Source: a virus. From it: a stretch of 64,000 bases of DNA. Made by a program: the position numbers and the translations under genes. Of the stretch, positions 10,421 through 63,836 are shown in pieces (position 1 is the stretch's first letter; the number at the start of each line of letters is the position of its first letter). The notes beneath the pieces are model-generated. The model did no database searches and was not told the origin of the DNA. It worked only from the letters and a program-made list of their open reading frames with translations. Location of the stretch: positions 124,001 through 188,000 of IMG/VR virus record IMGVR_UViG_3300036715_000626; one strand, 5' to 3'.

Positions 10421-13063
10421 ATGAACACAAATAATACCGATGTCACAGCACCAAATATACCGAGAGTCGTTAAAACCCAACCAGGTAATGGTGTAATACT
10501 CAGTAAATTAAACAATGACAGTAGTAAAAAAACAAGTATCAAGCAAGCAATGATCGGCGTCCCGTCTGTAGCAAATGATATACGCGAACGGATTAAGAAT
10601 AATGAAGATATTATTCAACTCTTTCCAGATGTTGAGTTAGCAATTCAAATTCTTACTTCAAGTATCTTAGCGCCTAACGATATGTTAACAACATCATTAG
10701 TATATGTCCCACCAGAAATTAAGTTACCCGTAGATGTTAAAAGCACGATTATGGATATCATTAAGAAGCATATTACTACTAATTATAATATCGAAGATAA
10801 GCTAACTGAAATCTTAAGAGAAGCTCTTTTTACAAAGGGTGCTTATATTGAAGCTATCATCCCTGAAGCATCTGTTGACGACATTATTAATAACAATGAC
10901 GGACAAATATCATTAGAAAGTTTTTTAGATAAGTCTCTTGAAGATAGTGTCTCTAATAATTTTTTACTTAAAGGTGTTGAAACTGATACAGAAATTAGTT
11001 TAGAGAGTTTAGCAAAAAACAGTACGGCTAAAATAAAAGTTAGTTTTGAAGATCTTGGTTTAGATATCACCGATGATATCAATATACTAAGCATTAAACG
11101 CCGGTATGAACATGCATTATCTAAAGTTATTAAAGATAAGTTTAGTCGTAGAAAGTCTAAAGTATCTACAGAAGCTAAAAAAATAAATCTTGATGATTTG
11201 TTTAGAAACAATGCTAACACTAAAATGGTAGAACTTGAATATGTTCCAACTTCTTCAGAAGCTTCTAGACAATCTATCGGTATGCCTTTGGTAATGAAAC
11301 TTCCTGTAGATTCAGTTATCCCGGTACACGTAAAATCAGATGTTAAAAAACATCTAGGATATTTTGTACTACTTGATGAAAACGGAGCACCTATCGATCT
11401 TGATTATGAACTTAATAAAGTAGATACCGCTACAAATTCATTATACGCTTCCGCAGATAACAAAGTAAACCTTATTAACAAAGCTAAAACTGCATTACAA
11501 GGTATTACTAAAAATGATGTTAAGTTAGAAAACTTAGAAACCGTATATAATGAACTTGTTGATAAGGCTATTAAGTCACGTCTTAAGAATGGTATGTACG
11601 GCGACTTGGCTGATATCAGAGACAGCGCTGATGTGTATCGTGTTATGTTTATGAGAGCGCTACGAAGTAAGAAAACACGTGTATTATTCTTACCATCTGA
11701 GTTAGTAGCTTTTTATGCATTTGATTATCGTGACAATGGTACTGGTAAATCTCTCTTAGAGAAAGTAAGTATGTTATTCAGTATTCGTTCTATTCTTTTG
11801 TTTGCTAAGATTATGGCTACTGTTAAGAATTCAACATCCGTTACTAAAGTAACCGCACATCTTGATGATGATGACAATGATCCAGAAGCAACGATGGAAA
11901 AAATCATGTCTGAGGCGCTTAAAACACGACAGACACAAGTTCCATTAGGTGTTATTAAAATTGATGATCTTGTTGACTGGAGTCAGAAGGTAGGGTTTAG
12001 TTTTAACTTTAGTGGCGCTAACTTACCAGATATGACTATTGATGTAGCAGATGAAACATCTCAGAAACAAGTACCAGATCAAGATCTCGATACGATGATT
12101 CAAGATCACATCATAATGTCATTTGGATTAACACCTGAGATTGTCCAGGCCGGTTACAGTGCTGACTTTGCAACTACAGTTATGGCTAAGAACTTGTTAT
12201 TTGCTAAACGAGTTATGCAAACACAACATACTCTATTACCACAGGCATCTAGTCATATTCGTAAGTATATGTCCGCGGATATGTTATTACAGAATAAGAT
12301 TAGAGGGGTTATAGAAGATAATATTACTAGTATCTCTAGTGATCTTAAAAAGTATATAAATTCAAATAACGATAACGATATTGAAGCAGAGTTACTTAAT
12401 AACAAAGAAGCTTTGATAGACTATATCTTAGATGCGGTTATTGATGAGACTTCCGTAGAGATTCCTATGGCTGAGCTTAGTGAAGCTCAATCTATGAAAG
12501 ACTCGTTTGAAGCTTATAAAACAGTTGTAGAAACATACATCGATCTGATCATTAGTGCTGAAGCTATGCCTAGTGATATTTTTGGAGATATGTCCGATCA
12601 ACTTGATAATATTAAAGCTATTGTTAAAACAGTGCTCTATAAGAAATGGATGGCTGATAACAATTATCTACCTGAAATTTCAGAATTCTTAACTCGTAAC
12701 GAAGATGGTAAACCTACCTTTAACTTACTAGAAGAATACAGTGTACATGCTACTAACTTAGCAGAAGCTATATTGCCATTCATTAAGGTTAATAATAAGT
12801 TTAAAGACAAGTATAACGATAAACTTAGTAAGCTTGCTATTCCTCCGGAAGGAGATGATTTTGGTGGGGATGAGACATCTCCTGATGATGCTGATGCACC
12901 TGATGACGGAACAGAACAACCTACAGATGATGATCTAGGTGGTTACGACAATACTGACGATGCTGGTGATGACGCCAATATCCCTACAGGTGATGAAGAA
13001 CTACCTACCGAGGATGATAAAACATCTACGGACGATATATCCGGAGATGATTTATTTAAATAA
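10421..13063 (+). CDS. portal vertex protein (880 aa)
   Basis: A putative portal, the dodecameric ring through which DNA enters the head. The diagnostic region is the central one, about residues 420-610: LPSELVAFYAFDYRDNGTG, GKSLLEKVSMLFSIRSILLF, VPLGVIKIDDLVDWSQKVGF, IIMSFGLTPEIVQAGYSADFATT. This is the order found in large myophage (T4 gp20-like and phiKZ-like) portals, and the length is close to phiKZ-type portals. The last 65 or so residues are an extremely acidic Asp/Glu/Thr-rich tail ending DDLFK, probably disordered and perhaps exposed for terminase or scaffold contact. GGAG lies 7 nt before ATG 10421. It is a rightward single-gene unit, convergent with the 474-aa gene. Confidence 0.8.
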   Translation: MNTNNTDVTAPNIPRVVKTQPGNGVILSKLNNDSSKKTSIKQAMIGVPSVANDIRERIKNNEDIIQLFPDVELAIQILTSSILAPNDMLTTSLVYVPPEIKLPVDVKSTIMDIIKKHITTNYNIEDKLTEILREALFTKGAYIEAIIPEASVDDIINNNDGQISLESFLDKSLEDSVSNNFLLKGVETDTEISLESLAKNSTAKIKVSFEDLGLDITDDINILSIKRRYEHALSKVIKDKFSRRKSKVSTEAKKINLDDLFRNNANTKMVELEYVPTSSEASRQSIGMPLVMKLPVDSVIPVHVKSDVKKHLGYFVLLDENGAPIDLDYELNKVDTATNSLYASADNKVNLINKAKTALQGITKNDVKLENLETVYNELVDKAIKSRLKNGMYGDLADIRDSADVYRVMFMRALRSKKTRVLFLPSELVAFYAFDYRDNGTGKSLLEKVSMLFSIRSILLFAKIMATVKNSTSVTKVTAHLDDDDNDPEATMEKIMSEALKTRQTQVPLGVIKIDDLVDWSQKVGFSFNFSGANLPDMTIDVADETSQKQVPDQDLDTMIQDHIIMSFGLTPEIVQAGYSADFATTVMAKNLLFAKRVMQTQHTLLPQASSHIRKYMSADMLLQNKIRGVIEDNITSISSDLKKYINSNNDNDIEAELLNNKEALIDYILDAVIDETSVEIPMAELSEAQSMKDSFEAYKTVVETYIDLIISAEAMPSDIFGDMSDQLDNIKAIVKTVLYKKWMADNNYLPEISEFLTRNEDGKPTFNLLEEYSVHATNLAEAILPFIKVNNKFKDKYNDKLSKLAIPPEGDDFGGDETSPDDADAPDDGTEQPTDDDLGGYDNTDDAGDDANIPTGDEELPTEDDKTSTDDISGDDLFK

Positions 13064-56358: not shown

Positions 56359-57252
56359 CTAATAGGTACTAAATTGAATTGCTTTAAATACATTGTCTAA
56401 ATTTGTTTTAACTAACATAATATAGATCATGTTACTAGCAAATATATTTGCCGTAACTATAGGCTTAATACGGCGGGATACTGTATCAAAATCAGTATCG
56501 TATACATCAATATAAAATATCTGTGTAGCAGAATCGTTATGTATTTGATATATAATAACAGATAAACTACTTACGCCTATATTATACATAAAATCAAGTG
56601 TGTAGTTTTTATTAACCACGATATCATTCAACGGTGACACAATACTCGCGTTGATATCTCCGGAAGTAATAAATGTCATAGTGGCGACTTGAGAACTATC
56701 ATTACTACTACTATTAAAAATAGCTCTAGCGCGATATGCATTGTTTTCTTTAAGAATAACATCACAAATCAGCATATTGTTTAAATTAATACTATCTGCG
56801 ATATGTTCCCATACGACTACACCAAAGATATCTTCAATAATCCATGTAGTAGATTCGTGTGTTCCAGTGCCGTACGAGCTATACCCATGCACACTTAAAG
56901 TGAACATCGTTGTAAGGTGATTAGTGGCGTCTGATGAAGATGTCAATATAGGTGTAGAAAGCACGCTAGGCATCTCAGAACGTAGATCAAGATCTCCTAG
57001 ATAGTTTGGAGTGGTAACATCAATATTACCCCACACCGTGTATCCTGTAGTAAGTAAAGACCGTGCTCTCGCGTAATAGCGTGATGTCGGATCAAGAGCA
57101 TCGTTAAACATAATACTAGATAGGTTAACATTATCCCCCATAGAACTAATAATAACATTAGTAAATTGTAAGTCGGTAGCTACCTGCCAATCTGTAGCAA
57201 GATGAGTTACTCCTGGTGGTAACAATAGTTCTGTAATTTTTAAAACAACCAT
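56359..57252 (-). CDS. virion protein with fibronectin-like pattern (297 aa)
   Basis: A beta-rich protein. The beginning (LLLPPGVTHLATDWQVATDL, then SRYYARARSL) follows the fibronectin type III style T(D/H)xxxQVAxDxxF...YYxRAR found in phage tail and surface proteins. A second beta unit follows (ATMTFITSGDINASIVSPLND). It is in the same operon as the repeat-rich 819-aa protein and the 947-aa protein, so it is probably part of the same virion appendage. AAGGAAGG precedes ATG 57252. Confidence 0.65.
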   Translation of the reverse strand: MVVLKITELLLPPGVTHLATDWQVATDLQFTNVIISSMGDNVNLSSIMFNDALDPTSRYYARARSLLTTGYTVWGNIDVTTPNYLGDLDLRSEMPSVLSTPILTSSSDATNHLTTMFTLSVHGYSSYGTGTHESTTWIIEDIFGVVVWEHIADSINLNNMLICDVILKENNAYRARAIFNSSSNDSSQVATMTFITSGDINASIVSPLNDIVVNKNYTLDFMYNIGVSSLSVIIYQIHNDSATQIFYIDVYDTDFDTVSRRIKPIVTANIFASNMIYIMLVKTNLDNVFKAIQFSTY

Positions 57253-57264
57253 ATTTTTCCTTCC

Positions 57265-57576
57265 TTAGTTCAATGCAATGATGGTATCTAATTTCTCTAC
57301 ATACCCACCATAGATAAATTTACCATAATATACTTTATCATCGTCAGAGCGCATCTCGTAAAGCATATTAACATATGTATCAAGATATTCTTTAGAATTT
57401 ATAATGTTACTAGTGCTCCAAATATATACACCAGGTATCTTAGTACTCTCATGACATACATTAGTAGTAATATCCACTAATGTATCTGTGATTATGTTAA
57501 GTAGTTTAATCGTAACGGTTTTACCTGTAGCAAATATACCTATTAACCCATTCTCTTCATCTACACTATAACGCAT
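57265..57576 (-). CDS. small beta-rich virion protein (103 aa)
   Basis: It begins MRYSVDEENGLIGIFATGKT and has VTIKLLNIITDTLVDITTNV, then PGVYIWSTSNI. Phage head-neck or appendage genes often contain this style (VTIKLYDxxTxxxVxLT... GxYxWxTSNI), but I cannot name it. It lies 3 nt after the repeat protein's stop codon and 12 nt before the 297-aa gene, so it is in the same virion operon. Confidence 0.65.
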   Translation of the reverse strand: MRYSVDEENGLIGIFATGKTVTIKLLNIITDTLVDITTNVCHESTKIPGVYIWSTSNIINSKEYLDTYVNMLYEMRSDDDKVYYGKFIYGGYVEKLDTIIALN

Positions 57577-57579
57577 TTA

Positions 57580-60039
57580 TTACTCCCATTCTACATATCT
57601 AAACATACTACAATCATTAATTATATTGTTACAGGATAAACTTAACCCTGTTTGTATCGTAGGTATTTCCACAATTATCCCACATCTTATGTCAGGCGTA
57701 TTTATAACATACTCTGTGTGTATGCTAGATAGTTTAGTGTTAGCTACACCTGATGCTGTTATACCAGCAAATGAAGTACCGGTAGTTATGTTGTTTATAG
57801 AGGTAACTGTACTAACATTTATATTCATAGCTGGATATTGTGTAACTGTGTTTATGTTATTTACTTTAGTATTAGAATATCCATGTGCATTTACGGCATT
57901 AAACACCGTACTGGTTGTTATAGGTACTACGGTAGCAATTGTGTTACTTCTACAAGTAACATTATTAAATACCGTTCCTGTTATTATAGGCGCTAACGCG
58001 ATTAAATTGTTACCAGTAACAACTTCTAGAGGGAATAATGTTGTCGTAGATATCGGTATTATCTCGGCAGTAGCTTTGCCTATTACACTCGTAGAATTAA
58101 ACGAAGTAGTGGTGTCTATAACACTAACCAAACTTCTGCTTGATCCATTAGCTGTCAAACTAGGAAATGTAGTACTAGTATTAATAGATGCGATATTAAT
58201 ATTTTGGTCTAGTTTAATCTTTATTTCATTATAAGTGGTATTAGTTTCTATAGTTAAAATAGCTATATTGTTACTACCATTAGCATTTACTGTTACTAAA
58301 TTTGTAGAGGTATCAATTGATGTGGCGTGACCTGTAGCACCGGCTCTTCCTGTTACATCTAGACTATTAGTGGATACTATAGTTCCAATCTGCGTAACTG
58401 CGCTACCGTAAACATTAACATCTGTAAAAGAAGTATTAGTAACTAGGCTGGTTAACGTGACATCAGCGCTGTTTCTAACATATAAGTTACTAAATACCGT
58501 CTCGGTGTTTATGCTGTTTACAATAGCTTTAGCGTCACCTGTAGTATGCACTGTATCTATATAACCAAAACTATCGATACTGGTAATAGAAGTTATCGAG
58601 CTACCGTGTGCTAAAATAATACCATTTATAATTGTATGTGTTTCTATTCCAGAAACACTAGTATACGCTAAACCAGTAATAGCTATATTATTTATAACAG
58701 TGGTAGTTGTTATCATAGGCGTTGTAGATACACTACTACCGCTGCTGGTATTATTATTTATTATCGTGCTAGAAGGAATTGATAATAGATTTGTTTTACT
58801 ATCACCAGTAACATTGTTATTATTAAAATTACTATTTGAATTTATAGCGGACACAACAGTGGTACTGTCACCGGTGCAATTTATATTATTAAATATAGTA
58901 TTGGTTACTATAGTAGGTACAAGTGTATTTATAGGAATTCTTGCGATGATTCCGGTGACGGTAGTTGTCGTCTCTATACCGCTTATGCTAGTAACACTAT
59001 CACCTTTTATAACACCTGAATTTATATCTGTATATGTTTGTAAGGCAGATACCGGTGTTACTGAATACCCCATAGACTGTATTGATGTGAAATTAGTACT
59101 TGTCGTTATATTATCAATAGTAGTGTGTGAGTTACCGATTACGCTCATACTATTAAAAATAGTGTTAGCAATTATTTGGTCAATCGGAATAACTGCATTA
59201 TTACGGATAGATATACTAGGGAACGTAGTACTTGTATTAATAACAGTGGTATTAGTTATGCAGTTACCCTGAACACTTAATGTGTTAAATGTTGTATTGG
59301 TAACTATAGTATTAATGGTGCTATTAGAAGAACCTTTAACAGTGGGAGTACCTATAGTGGTGCTCGTAATGTTAGCTATAACACTAGTTATTGCATCGCC
59401 ACTAACAAGTATTTCGTTAAATACTGTATTCACACTTATATAACTTAACGCAGTATTAGATATCCCGTTCGTAGTGGATACGTTAAATAGTGTACTAGAA
59501 GGTATTGTTAACAAATTAGTCTTGGATTCCCCAATTACTGTTATGTTATTAACTGTACTTGTTGTCAAAATAGGCGAAATTACCGCACTCGCACTAGCTT
59601 GAACTGTTATTGGTGTAAAATCCGTAACTGTATTTATCACCGGTACCACAACAGTCTCAGGTAAAGATATTGTTATAGGATTGAATGTAGTAGTAGTGCT
59701 AATACCATTAATACTAGTAGAAGCGCTACCGTAAACATTAATCGTGTTAACATTAGTACTGCTATTTATAGTGTTAGAAACAGTATGCGCATTTCCATTA
59801 ATACTTATGCTTTGAAAATCACTAGTTGTTGATAACTCTGTAAATCCTGCTGTGGCGTTACCATTTACAGATATGTTATTAATAGATGTATTTGTACCTA
59901 TAACACCACTAGCTGCGTTAGCATCTCCCGTAACAATTATATCGTTAAAAGAAGTTGTCGTGGCTACTACCGCCATGTTGACGGTAGTGCTTACACTAGT
60001 TGCACCGGCAGTATATAGGGGGTATAATGTAAGTAACAT
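57580..60039 (-). CDS. repeat protein with 35 units of 22 residues, virion appendage candidate (819 aa)
   Basis: After a 26-residue leader (MLLTLYPLYTAGATSVSTTV), residues 27-796 consist of 35 tandem 22-residue units with no gap. The consensus is TxTxFNxIxV then xGxSxTxVxxIx. Only two units depart from 22, one of 23 and one of 21, so the register is kept. A 23-residue cap with two Cys follows. Thr at positions 1 and 3, an aromatic at 5 and Asn/Gly turns suggest stacked beta-solenoid coils with a Thr ladder on one face. The function is unknown; a fibre or adhesive surface in the virion is likely, given its operon. The opposite strand has long open frames because of the codon pattern; these are not genes. 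Confidence 0.8.
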   Translation of the reverse strand: MLLTLYPLYTAGATSVSTTVNMAVVATTTSFNDIIVTGDANAASGVIGTNTSINNISVNGNATAGFTELSTTSDFQSISINGNAHTVSNTINSSTNVNTINVYGSASTSINGISTTTTFNPITISLPETVVVPVINTVTDFTPITVQASASAVISPILTTSTVNNITVIGESKTNLLTIPSSTLFNVSTTNGISNTALSYISVNTVFNEILVSGDAITSVIANITSTTIGTPTVKGSSNSTINTIVTNTTFNTLSVQGNCITNTTVINTSTTFPSISIRNNAVIPIDQIIANTIFNSMSVIGNSHTTIDNITTSTNFTSIQSMGYSVTPVSALQTYTDINSGVIKGDSVTSISGIETTTTVTGIIARIPINTLVPTIVTNTIFNNINCTGDSTTVVSAINSNSNFNNNNVTGDSKTNLLSIPSSTIINNNTSSGSSVSTTPMITTTTVINNIAITGLAYTSVSGIETHTIINGIILAHGSSITSITSIDSFGYIDTVHTTGDAKAIVNSINTETVFSNLYVRNSADVTLTSLVTNTSFTDVNVYGSAVTQIGTIVSTNSLDVTGRAGATGHATSIDTSTNLVTVNANGSNNIAILTIETNTTYNEIKIKLDQNINIASINTSTTFPSLTANGSSRSLVSVIDTTTSFNSTSVIGKATAEIIPISTTTLFPLEVVTGNNLIALAPIITGTVFNNVTCRSNTIATVVPITTSTVFNAVNAHGYSNTKVNNINTVTQYPAMNINVSTVTSINNITTGTSFAGITASGVANTKLSSIHTEYVINTPDIRCGIIVEIPTIQTGLSLSCNNIINDCSMFRYVEWE
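57652..59961 (-). repeat. 35 tandem 66-bp coding repeats (22 residues each)
   Basis: The protein repeat region of the 819-aa gene. 770 residues divide exactly into 35 units of 22 residues. The DNA units are diverged, so the array is old and kept by selection on the protein pattern, not by recent duplication. Confidence 0.9.
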
Positions 60040-60042
60040 ACT

Positions 60043-62886
60043 TTAGAACCAGAGCATAGTACGGTATAACTCGGCTCCGCTATTACGCATGTGATAAAGG
60101 TAATTTATACCAGAATCACTTTTTACAATTTCCATACGGTTACCAATAGCCGGAGCTAACTGTGTATTAGGTACAGCACCCGCTCCAAATATTCTACCAA
60201 GTGTTATATCATAATAGTATACATACTGCACAACTCCAGAAGCAACAGCTGGTGAAAAATATATACGGTTAACTCCGTCATATGCATAATAAGTACCAGC
60301 CCCCATAGTATCTGTTTGAGGAGTAAAGAATAACGAATACTCAAATAGTTCCGTTGTAATGTCATAACGATCAGCTGTATTAGATCCTCCGCCGCGCGGT
60401 AAAAACATATATTTACCATTAGATACTCCACCAAACATCCATAGTAATTCAATACCCACACCTCTATTAGGTACACTTAGTATAGTATAGGTCGTAGTTG
60501 CATCAGGAGCAAAACCTGTAATCGCTGTGAATGTCAATGTATTCGAAGTGTTCGAAACAATTGTTATTTCATTAAGCGCCGCTGCTAAACCGAACCCACT
60601 ACCACCAGTGATACGGACTTTCTTACCTGCCCATTGATTAACAACCCAGTTTTGGGTGGTATCTACTAGTGTAGATGCAGAACCAGCCCCAGTGCAAACA
60701 CCAAAACTATCCTGAATAATATATCTAGTAGTCGAATCTGGCGTAAACGACTGTGTTGCATACGTTAATGTATTGTTAGTATTACTAGTAATAGTTATAT
60801 AGGTATCTCTACCGGTACCTGCTAATATTCTAAACCGATAACCAGCCCACTGATTAGTGTTCCAATTTTTAGTAGTATCTACTAATGTGGTCGTAGAACC
60901 ACCTGTAGCTAACCCATATGAACTTTTTGTAAGATCCTTATATTGCTCATCTCTACCAAACATACTATTATTAACAATAACATATCGACCGGTACCGTTT
61001 ACAAGTGCGGTTGTGATAGTAGCTACCGTTAAGGTAGTCGCTGTGTTAGAAGTAATTATACGTGGTTGAACTGCTCCAGATGTACCTACTAAATGGGTCT
61101 GAACTATTTTACCAACATGTTCGTTAACGGTCCAGTTTTTAGTAGAATCTACTATAACGGTAGCTGATAATGCATTAGCCGCGGTCATGTTACCAGATGC
61201 TGCCGTAGCAAAATCGAAACCAGTTAATGAATCACACCCTATAATGGTAACAGTACCTGCGTACGAGGAATCTCCCGAAAGAACTACTGAATCGCCTATT
61301 TTAAAGTTATGGTTAATAGCGGTCACTACGTTACACACAACACCTACTACAGTTACGTTAGCTACAAATCCAGTTCCGACACCAGTTGTCGCAGATTGCG
61401 CGAAAGTAGTTACAGAATAACCACTACCTGGACGGTACAGCGATATACCAGTTACTACACCACCAGCACTAACTGAAGTTACTTGCACCTTACCACTAGT
61501 TCCGGTCACAAGAGTGATTATTTCACCGACGACATACCCAGTACCCGCTGCAGATATAGTTACTGTTTTAATACCAGATGTTGTTCTTGTACCTGAAGTT
61601 AGAGCTATTGTAGGGGTATCCAAACCAGGAAAGTTAGCGCCTAAAATACACGCCACCCCGTCATCATATTTACTACCTTCTATCACTAAGTCTGAATCTA
61701 CATCATATTGTAACATAGCCGCTTGAGCATTACCTGTAATATAAAATTTATCTTTATCTGCTATAATTTCATATACTGATGTATTATCAGGTGTAATAGT
61801 CCATTTTCTAGCAACTTCTACGTAATTTGTTCCGGTACTAATTATTCGTCTTTGTTGCCCCACACCAGTACCAGAAGTAATACGTACTCTATAATTATTA
61901 TATTGATTTACTGTATATGCTTTAGCCGTGTTGACTAATGTATAGACGGTACCGGAAGTAGCTGTTCCGGTATCATATATTCCCCCAATCTCACTAGTAC
62001 GTTCAAGTGTTCCGTCCGTACCAAATGCAGCCAGTGTTATATTGGTAGGTACTGTTTTATATTGCCATGTATCCATAGCAGTATCATAATACTGTAATGA
62101 AAAAAACGGAGCTGCTACAGAAGATGTTAACAACCAACAACCACCCGACTCTACTTTATAGGTAGATGTGTAATCTGGTTGTACAGTCCATGGTGTATCG
62201 ACAGTTACGTCTGAAGCTTCAATAACAAAGTGGGATTGTGAACCGGCTGTTGTAGACGGAGTAGTAACAAAACTGACATTATTAAACGGATATAGCGGTT
62301 GGTAGTTAGCATCTGCAACATACAATGTTGTATTATCATTATACAAAATCTTACGTATTTGTGTCATACCAGTACTAAAGGTAATTCGTACTTGATAACC
62401 GCACCATTGATTCATTTTCCATTTTTTAGTAGAATCACCGATACTTGTAGCTGATGCAACAGTAGCTACTCCTTGATCATACTTTGTAGGAATCCCTGTC
62501 GTAGTTATTGTTCTAGTTTGTCCGCTACCAGTACCAGAAGTAATACGTATTTTAAATCCATCTAAAATATTTGCATTAAATCCAGCTATTCGTATTTGAT
62601 TAGCGGCAGGAGTACTGATAACACGCCCGTATGTTCCACTGAACGCAGAATATCTTAAAGATGCAAATACTGTAGGGGAAAGCAAAAGAGGAGCAAGTTT
62701 ATGCGGGACATTACCATAGGTATCGTATTTATAAAATGACGCTCCGGACACATAATAAATTCCCCTTCCCTTCCCGTCTTCTTGTGTAGTTAATGCGGAC
62801 AACGCACTTGAAGCTACTGGTAGCGGTTCCATAGATTGCCAAAGTTGTTTATTGTCGATTGTGTGGTTATTATTCGTAGTGGCCAT
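60043..62886 (-). CDS. virion protein with five or six WxxNQWxG modules (947 aa)
   Basis: A large beta-rich protein. A module of about 60 residues recurs: STxxxVDTTKNWxxNQWxGxxxRI, then TSNTxxTLTxxxx, then PDxTTxYxI. Good copies are around LVDTTKNWNTNQWAGYRFRI and LVDTTQNWVVNQWAGKKVRI, with more diverged ones earlier (DSTKKWKMNQWCGYQVRITF; AKAYTVNQYNNYRVRITSGT). Between them are other beta domains, for example GSGYSVTTFAQSATTGVGTG. Similar modules are found in phage virion proteins. It is in an operon with the 149-aa and 819-aa genes. AAAGGA precedes ATG 62886. Confidence 0.75.
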   Translation of the reverse strand: MATTNNNHTIDNKQLWQSMEPLPVASSALSALTTQEDGKGRGIYYVSGASFYKYDTYGNVPHKLAPLLLSPTVFASLRYSAFSGTYGRVISTPAANQIRIAGFNANILDGFKIRITSGTGSGQTRTITTTGIPTKYDQGVATVASATSIGDSTKKWKMNQWCGYQVRITFSTGMTQIRKILYNDNTTLYVADANYQPLYPFNNVSFVTTPSTTAGSQSHFVIEASDVTVDTPWTVQPDYTSTYKVESGGCWLLTSSVAAPFFSLQYYDTAMDTWQYKTVPTNITLAAFGTDGTLERTSEIGGIYDTGTATSGTVYTLVNTAKAYTVNQYNNYRVRITSGTGVGQQRRIISTGTNYVEVARKWTITPDNTSVYEIIADKDKFYITGNAQAAMLQYDVDSDLVIEGSKYDDGVACILGANFPGLDTPTIALTSGTRTTSGIKTVTISAAGTGYVVGEIITLVTGTSGKVQVTSVSAGGVVTGISLYRPGSGYSVTTFAQSATTGVGTGFVANVTVVGVVCNVVTAINHNFKIGDSVVLSGDSSYAGTVTIIGCDSLTGFDFATAASGNMTAANALSATVIVDSTKNWTVNEHVGKIVQTHLVGTSGAVQPRIITSNTATTLTVATITTALVNGTGRYVIVNNSMFGRDEQYKDLTKSSYGLATGGSTTTLVDTTKNWNTNQWAGYRFRILAGTGRDTYITITSNTNNTLTYATQSFTPDSTTRYIIQDSFGVCTGAGSASTLVDTTQNWVVNQWAGKKVRITGGSGFGLAAALNEITIVSNTSNTLTFTAITGFAPDATTTYTILSVPNRGVGIELLWMFGGVSNGKYMFLPRGGGSNTADRYDITTELFEYSLFFTPQTDTMGAGTYYAYDGVNRIYFSPAVASGVVQYVYYYDITLGRIFGAGAVPNTQLAPAIGNRMEIVKSDSGINYLYHMRNSGAELYRTMLWF

Positions 62887-62895
62887 ATTGATCCT

Positions 62896-63345
62896 TTATA
62901 CGTATTGTATGTTATTTAATATTCCAGTATTAAAAGCTGTATCCATCTGAGCTTCTACCACACGTTGCGCTTGTACATCCCCTATTCGAGCTTGATTGGA
63001 TAAAGTACCTACAGTTGTAGTAGTAGCAACTGTTGTTACTGTTGTTACGGTCCCAACTGTTCCTAGTCCTCCGGATTTAGCTAAATTTACATATAACTGT
63101 TTAGCTGGATCGGTAATCATGCCAAATTCTAATCGATCTAGAAAATATGCCATAATGTTGTATATGTCAGTCATAGTTTTATCGTTGGTAGGCATCGGGT
63201 TATCAGTAGAAACTAATCCACCATCTACAGAACTTCCACCTAATTGCAATTTAACTATTTGTGTTTCAGTATTGTCAGTTAGCTTATCCGTGTTAACACT
63301 ATGTAGTGTACTATTAGTGTCGCTAAGCACTACTTCAGTTTGCAT
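62896..63345 (-). CDS. small virion protein with TV-repeat segment (149 aa)
   Basis: It begins MQTEVVLSDTNSTLHSVNTD. The first half ends in a helix (TDIYNIMAYFLDRLEFGMIT). Then a GTVGTVTTVTTVATTTTVG low-complexity beta segment leads to a C-terminal helix (AQRVVEAQMDTAFNTGILNN). Proteins of this build sit next to large structural proteins in many marine phages, as far as I recall. CAAGGAG precedes ATG 63345. It is the first gene of the leftward virion operon ending at 56.3 kb. Confidence 0.7.
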   Translation of the reverse strand: MQTEVVLSDTNSTLHSVNTDKLTDNTETQIVKLQLGGSSVDGGLVSTDNPMPTNDKTMTDIYNIMAYFLDRLEFGMITDPAKQLYVNLAKSGGLGTVGTVTTVTTVATTTTVGTLSNQARIGDVQAQRVVEAQMDTAFNTGILNNIQYV

Positions 63346-63428: not shown

Positions 63429-63836
63429 TTAATTCCATACAAAAATACCAGCGGCATTGTTGATATCAGCCACGAACGCGCCATCTGTAGATGTACGATC
63501 GCTTCCGAAGTCAATGACGCAAACACATTTGTTACCGTTGGTAGCGTTGTAGATCATCGCGCCACGTGCTGTGATACTAGCTGCCGGCCAAGTGATGTCA
63601 TCACAAGTAAACCCTACAGCTGGGGCAGCTGTAGCTAAGGCGACATTGACTAACGATTGTCCGCCTGCAGTATATCCTGTTCCGGATACTTCACCTGTTG
63701 TTGTGTACACTGTAGTAGTAGAACTTAAAGTCGCTGCTGATGTGTATAGTGCAATTTTATAGGTATCCGCTAAATGATGTTCCCCGTTAAAAACCTGTTG
63801 TTTGTACGATGTGGCTAGGCCAGCACTGATTGCCAT
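63429..63836 (-). CDS. virion structural protein (135 aa)
   Basis: A small structural protein of a type common in tailed phages. FNGEHHLADTYKIALYTSAA, TLSSTTTVYTTTGEVSGTGY and ITWPAASITARGAMIYN follow the familiar order (TYKIALYTSxAxL, EVSGxGYTxGG, W...RGxxIYN) of short tail or decoration proteins. It ends DINNAAGIFVWN. AAAAGGA precedes ATG 63836. It is between the next gene at the right edge and the hairpin at 63379-63405. Confidence 0.75.
   Translation of the reverse strand: MAISAGLATSYKQQVFNGEHHLADTYKIALYTSAATLSSTTTVYTTTGEVSGTGYTAGGQSLVNVALATAAPAVGFTCDDITWPAASITARGAMIYNATNGNKCVCVIDFGSDRTSTDGAFVADINNAAGIFVWN

Follow-up and report, generated by a model that had tools for sequence, protein, structure and literature searches.

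A 35-unit, 22-residue repeat protein beside a Kelch-like tail gene: a candidate beta-solenoid rod of a viral adsorption apparatus

A 64-kb stretch of viral DNA (hereafter the window; positions 124,001 to 188,000 of IMG/VR record IMGVR_UViG_3300036715_000626) encodes an 819-residue protein that consists largely of 35 tandem 22-residue units. The period is held at the level of the protein, the gene lies in a tail-type context, and the same genomic slot is occupied in other phages by repeat proteins of similar period. On balance, we slightly favour reading the protein as a long beta-solenoid rod, with one coil per 22-residue unit, that belongs to the phage tail or adsorption apparatus. Judged by its sequence, the repeat family is new to Pfam, PHROGs and NCBIfam. 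The coordinates of the gene, its parts and its neighbours are listed in Table 1.

Table 1. Repeat gene, its parts and neighbouring genes (coordinates in the window).
Feature	Position	Strand	Basis or remark
Repeat-protein gene, 819 aa	57580..60039	-	ATG-started open reading frame; no Pfam, PHROG or NCBIfam family
35 tandem 22-residue units, consensus TxTxFNxIxVxGxSxTxVxxI	57652..59961	-	Residues 27-796; self-comparison and unit split
N-terminal 26 residues, MLLTLYPLYTAGATSVSTTVNMAVVA; MLLTL start like slot proteins of related phages	59962..60039	-	Possible docking segment (putative function)
Sole 23-residue unit, residues 467-489	58573..58641	-	Unit split and alignment
Sole 21-residue unit, residues 556-576	58312..58374	-	Unit split
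C-terminal 23 residues, TGLSLSCNNIINDCSMFRYVEWE, and stop codon; partial unit or cap	57580..57651	-	Sequence
phrog_644 protein	63429..63836	-	Same family in Pam2, L011 and L041 cassettes
149-aa small protein	62896..63345	-	Occupies the position that the MADNVGYTPG-type gene has in relatives; weak, non-significant similarity
947-aa protein directly upstream of repeat gene; Kelch-like	60043..62886	-	Homologues
103-aa protein directly downstream of repeat gene	57265..57576	-	No relatives in scan
297-aa protein	56359..57252	-	Matches, over part of its length, segments of larger tail-fibre-like ORFs in other phages

Self-comparison of the 819-residue protein gave an identity of 0.255 at lag 22 (z = 14.3 relative to 200 shuffles), 0.253 at lag 44 (z = 13.9) and 0.222 at lag 66 (z = 11.1), against approximately 0.10 at nearly all lags other than multiples of the period. 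Splitting the array into units yielded 33 of 22 residues, one of 23 and one of 21, which is the constant coil length expected of a beta-solenoid or parallel beta-helix. The original prediction had read 35 consecutive units (770 residues) with a single 23-residue and a single 21-residue unit, and our boundaries agreed with it exactly. Mean identity between units was 27% for amino acids and 44.5% for DNA and did not fall as the distance between units grew, so the array is old and evenly diverged. The protein is the only one of its kind in the window, and the whole 205-kb record contained one match to it. Long antisense open reading frames with the same 22-codon period lie opposite the repeat gene at 57626-58234 and 58700-59272 on the plus strand; these appear to be shadows of the repeat and are not likely to be genes.

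Periodicity was calculated separately for each codon position. Position 1 gave 0.491 at lag 22, relative to about 0.37-0.41 at neighbouring lags, and position 2 gave 0.439, relative to about 0.22-0.29. Position 3 was aperiodic, with 0.358 at lag 22 and 0.33-0.38 at neighbouring lags. Synonymous codon agreement between adjacent units was 0.40, at the level of the 0.416 predicted from codon usage, and a DNA tandem-repeat search detected no array over the repeat gene. Because codon positions 1 and 2 are periodic and position 3 is not, the period is held by selection on the protein, as had been claimed from the divergence of the DNA units. Recent tandem duplication was considered as the source of the array and was ruled out by the aperiodic third codon positions.

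Residue frequencies by unit position were determined using the 33 standard 22-residue units. Threonine occupied position 1 in 79% and position 3 in 85% of these, bearing out the TxT pattern of the original prediction. Position 5 was always hydrophobic (F in 20/33), position 6 was N in 58%, and positions 8 and 10 were hydrophobic in 76% and 73%. G was found at position 12 in 73%, A/S at 14 in 73% and T at 16 in 52%; position 18 was hydrophobic in 88% and position 21 was I in 88%. Mean information was approximately 1.7 bits at positions 1, 3, 5, 8, 10, 12, 14, 16, 18 and 21 and approximately 0.7 bits elsewhere in the unit. The conserved positions alternate (21, 1, 3, 5, then 8, 10, 12, 14, 16, 18), with switches of parity at 6-7 and 19-20. 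Judged on the residues, this is as expected for beta strands joined by two-residue turns, and the three groups 1, 3, 5 / 8-18 / 21 are consistent with the alternating inward positions of a beta-solenoid or parallel beta-helix. In strand parity, T1 and T3 go with F5 and I21, which should direct them inward with the hydrophobic core; they are more likely to be buried than exposed. The charged residues D, E, K and R together account for 6.7% of the protein, and its six cysteines form no ladder.

AlphaFold2 (AF2) was run on self-alignments of non-overlapping segments of the protein, which contained no homologues. The first alignment (A1) comprised 5 rows of 7 units and the second (A2) 7 rows of 5 units, with different query segments. 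Both models were all-beta and of low confidence (model 1 from A1: pLDDT 53.9, pTM 0.43; model 2 from A2: pLDDT 50.2, pTM 0.46), and both placed three strands in each unit, at approximately 2-5, 8-11 and 14-21, with pLDDT 50-54. Foldseek superposed model 1 on A0A6J5M9D8, a phage protein of unknown function (TM 0.77, rmsd 1.9), on A0A6J5NRI8 (TM 0.71), on a protein of Roseobacter phage CRP-5 (TM 0.66) and on a 268-aa Caulobacter phage Seuss entry in BFVD (TM 0.64), which was equated with gp39 by its length. Matches of model 1 to the PDB were weak, and the best were mostly beta-helices. No Foldseek match reached E 0.001 or better. The model 1 superpositions were not reproduced with model 2, for which the TM-score to A0A6J5M9D8 was 0.35, and handedness and overall fold are therefore not determined by these matches. 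For curlin solenoids, AF2 is known to give ambiguous handedness from shallow alignments (PMC10192328). At the low confidence of both models, a three-stranded pattern per unit is supported, while the three-dimensional superposition, handedness and exact type of solenoid are not fixed by them. One solenoid coil per unit, as originally proposed, stands as the simplest reading of the array; both low-confidence models are all-beta and place three strands in every unit. Of the checks named with that proposal, structure prediction gave the same strands in both runs but no reproducible superposition, and the structure-database search placed beta-helices among the best PDB matches but none at E 0.001.

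The record is that of a 205-kb virus encoding a phrog_3231 major head protein, a phrog_3015 RNA polymerase subunit and a phrog_3004 virion protein, which we take to be of phiKZ type. It also encodes a 364-aa tubulin/FtsZ-family protein (PF00091, E 1.7e-5, below the curated cut-off; G000:C1:109456-109878, minus strand; locus L071:886-1980), possibly a PhuZ-like spindle protein, which would fit a nucleus-forming phage. Around the repeat gene, the order is phrog_644 protein, 149-aa protein, 947-aa protein, repeat protein, 103-aa protein and 297-aa protein. Homologues of the 947-aa protein were found at 17 viral-contig loci, in Pseudanabaena phage Pam2 and, via its relative at locus L011, in three candidate-phylum (CPR) bacterial genomes, one of whose homologues scored above the Pfam cut-off for Kelch_1. 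No relatives came up when the 103-aa protein or the ATPase gene served as scan query. No close relatives of the repeat protein were present in the viral contigs or phage records searched. Among related records, its profile matched only itself, plus a chance-level match in Pam2.

The bacterial homologues of the phage Kelch-like tail protein lie at L072:4989-7808, L073:4989-7865 and in L074. At these loci, the gene before the Kelch-like homologue resembles one for a Tat-signal protein, with an RRNFL-type motif that is clearest in L073, and a protein of TatC type is encoded after the homologue (Pfam TatC scored in L072). This arrangement suggests that the homologue may be a secreted surface counterpart in those bacteria.

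The slot after the Kelch-like protein was compared across lineages. The gene following the 947-aa homologue encodes a 21-23-residue repeat protein in Pam2, L009, the L011 and L041 groups, L052 and L053, with a 53-aa gene interposed in Pam2; L051 is a weak seventh case. The period is 23 in Pam2_68 (UQS94948.1), 22 in L011, L009 and L041, and 21 in L052 and L053. These slot proteins start with an MLLLL/MLLTL-like segment, which is found in about 1% of the other open reading frames of the same loci. The window gene has the same features: it follows the Kelch-like tail protein, carries repeats in this range and starts with a hydrophobic segment. In Pam2, the counterpart's repeats match a PHROG profile named 'minor tail protein'. 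In approximately 12 other lineages, a different gene follows the Kelch-like homologue, and the slot is thus not always filled by a repeat protein. Public names in this region of Pam2 (L019) are implausible: the Kelch-like tail protein, for instance, is called a 'flagellar hook-length control protein'. These names are probably low-confidence automatic transfers.

The slot proteins include a GxFxLTGQAA type and others. The consensus of the repeats differs by lineage: TxTxFNxIxVxG in the window, GTFTLSGQAANL in L011, GSLAVTEAGSDTLAASG in L009 and SLFTNTNSFY in Pam2. Repeat families were compared by a cyclic column-profile test with a permuted-position null. Columns of the window units aligned with those of L009, L011, L041 and podovirus ct9yY11 only as well as chance would allow (p 0.64-0.81). 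The test thus gives no support for a shared ancestry of the repeats, and no homologous repeat sequence links the window to the slot proteins tested. The units of L011, L041 and ct9yY11 were related to one another. In ct9yY11, a 196-aa protein (L037:7061-7651) consists almost wholly of 22-residue GxYxLTGTAAxL repeats, and its gene sits between a pectate-lyase-annotated gene and virion genes. In the L011 protein (10690-12381), a C-terminal domain that matches phrog_1004 (virion structural protein) and has CxxC motifs is joined to the repeats. The repeat proteins of the near-identical phages L011 (10690-12381) and L016 (2101-3582) differ by 70 residues inside the array (563 versus 493 aa), and their neighbouring proteins are identical over the common part; this difference indicates loss or gain of units by recombination, by which unit number apparently can change in this lineage. 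It is possible, if rather doubtful, that many phages carry a replaceable 'rod cassette' behind the Kelch-like tail protein, in which the coil length (21-23) and the N-terminal dock would be fixed, the repeat sequence replaced or diverged, and the unit number variable, tuning rod length and surface chemistry.

Four other readings were weighed against the solenoid rod. Most phage fibres are trimers, and the units might each contribute one strand set to the common core of a homotrimeric fibre (a triple beta-spiral or interwoven beta-helix). The tail-fibre-like context fits such a fibre, as does the weak monomer prediction, which is expected if the fold needs partners; we nevertheless hold it unlikely, given that AF2 places three strands in each unit of the monomer and that five hydrophobic positions per unit are enough for a core of its own. 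Alternatively, the units could be strongly diverged 22-residue internalin-type leucine-rich repeats (LRRs) forming a curved solenoid with a ligand on the host surface as its target. Both the A1 and the A2 profile matched internalin A, with E 5.8e-6 and 5.6e-5 and in the same register (T3-F5-I8-V10-(S/D/N)13-I18-I21 against LT-L-L-L-N-I-L), a match that the original prediction did not anticipate, and a reversed profile of the same composition and period had no internalin match at E<=10. The match thus appears to be more than a composition effect, yet we treat it as grounds for an alternative and not as family membership. Single matched stretches were weak (i-E 0.002-0.1) and biased, LRR_4 (PF12799) was unmatched at E<=10, the Pfam scan returned no LRR family, and no LRR structure was named among the 50 PDB fold matches listed. 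The hydrophobic LRR pattern (2, 5, 8, 10, 15, 18, 21) holds except at positions 2 (S/T/N) and 15 (N/V/T/I), which are polar or mixed, and G12, A/S14 and T16 are conserved instead. Overall, we regard this reading as improbable.

A secreted or host-directed protein that lies in the tail region by chance and is not part of the virion would account for the hydrophobic N-terminus. It is highly improbable: basic residues, typical of a signal peptide, are absent from the first 26 positions, and the slot recurs beside the same tail-type gene in other phages. Least credible, and close to dismissed, is a TxT ice-binding or antifreeze-type beta-helix with threonine ladders on an exposed face, the analogy drawn in the original prediction from the frequent T1 and T3. 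In antifreeze beta-helices the Thr ladders point outward, and the insect TxT coil has 12-13 residues and disulfides. The parity of T1 and T3 with F5 and I21 would instead turn them to the core, the coil has 22 residues, the few cysteines are not arranged as a ladder, and it is not apparent what such a protein would do in a phage tail cassette. Coil length, strand parity and cysteine content were the grounds for rejecting this reading.

In the solenoid rod that we favour, each coil would begin with a strand at approximately positions 1-5, with I21, T1, T3 and F5 pointing inward. Next, a two-residue turn (N6-x7) would lead into a strand at 8-11 (I8, V10), and a turn at G12 into a strand at 14-18/21 (A/S14, T16, V18); three strands per coil are predicted at low confidence. 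With a spacing of roughly 4.8 A per coil, a stack of approximately 35 would measure about 17 nm. Docking to a partner, plausibly the neighbouring 947-aa Kelch-like protein, probably occurs via the hydrophobic MLLTL segment at the N-terminus. A surface of Thr, Ser and Asn with few charges would suit a spacer shaft, or adhesion of low specificity.

The original prediction recognised no named family, and none was found for the 819-aa protein in Pfam, PHROGs or NCBIfam. Sub-threshold matches (alpha-lytic protease prodomain in Pfam, phrog_21800) were taken as chance. Within the viral contig and phage collections, and at the sensitivity of the searches, the window consensus had no detectable homologue. 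Literature searches brought up no account of a 22-residue repeat tail protein. Short-period repeat proteins in phage tail modules recur, unannotated, in public phage records. As the consensus lies outside the three family collections, such proteins are probably filed as unknown. If the solenoid reading is right, the protein would be a very long, regular natural solenoid in a phage. The constant coil length and unrelated repeats in one slot would then be natural material for studying the determinants of a beta-solenoid coil and the ways in which phages adjust their adsorption rods.

Among known systems, the curlin (CsgA) repeat is a 22-23-residue beta-solenoid unit (PMC10192328). The array resembles it in period and lacks its Gln/Asn/Gly motif; Curlin_rpt (PF07012) had no match at E<=10 in the genome. 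Internalin-type LRRs share with the array the 22-residue period and five hydrophobic positions, and differ at LRR positions 2 and 15, in their conserved Asn and in their Pfam LRR match. With the insect antifreeze beta-helix the array has the TxT motif in common, on a coil of 22 residues in which the threonines probably point inward. Right-handed parallel beta-helices of the pectate lyase type have approximately 22 residues and three strands per coil, as predicted here, with inward hydrophobics and Asn at a two-residue turn. These helices carry an Asn ladder, of which the Asn at the 6-7 turn of the array is reminiscent. The array is far more regular, shows no catalytic residues and has no significant structural match to them. 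Caulobacter phage Seuss gp39 (AKU43565.1) also has a short period (21), lies near tail and lysis genes, and corresponds in length to the BFVD entry superposed on model 1, whereas its consensus, VSIAASLSKTMSSMSRSI, is different. The slot proteins, by comparison, have fewer units and an unrelated consensus (p 0.65-0.81 for L009, L011 and L041), and that of L011 additionally bears its C-terminal phrog_1004 domain.
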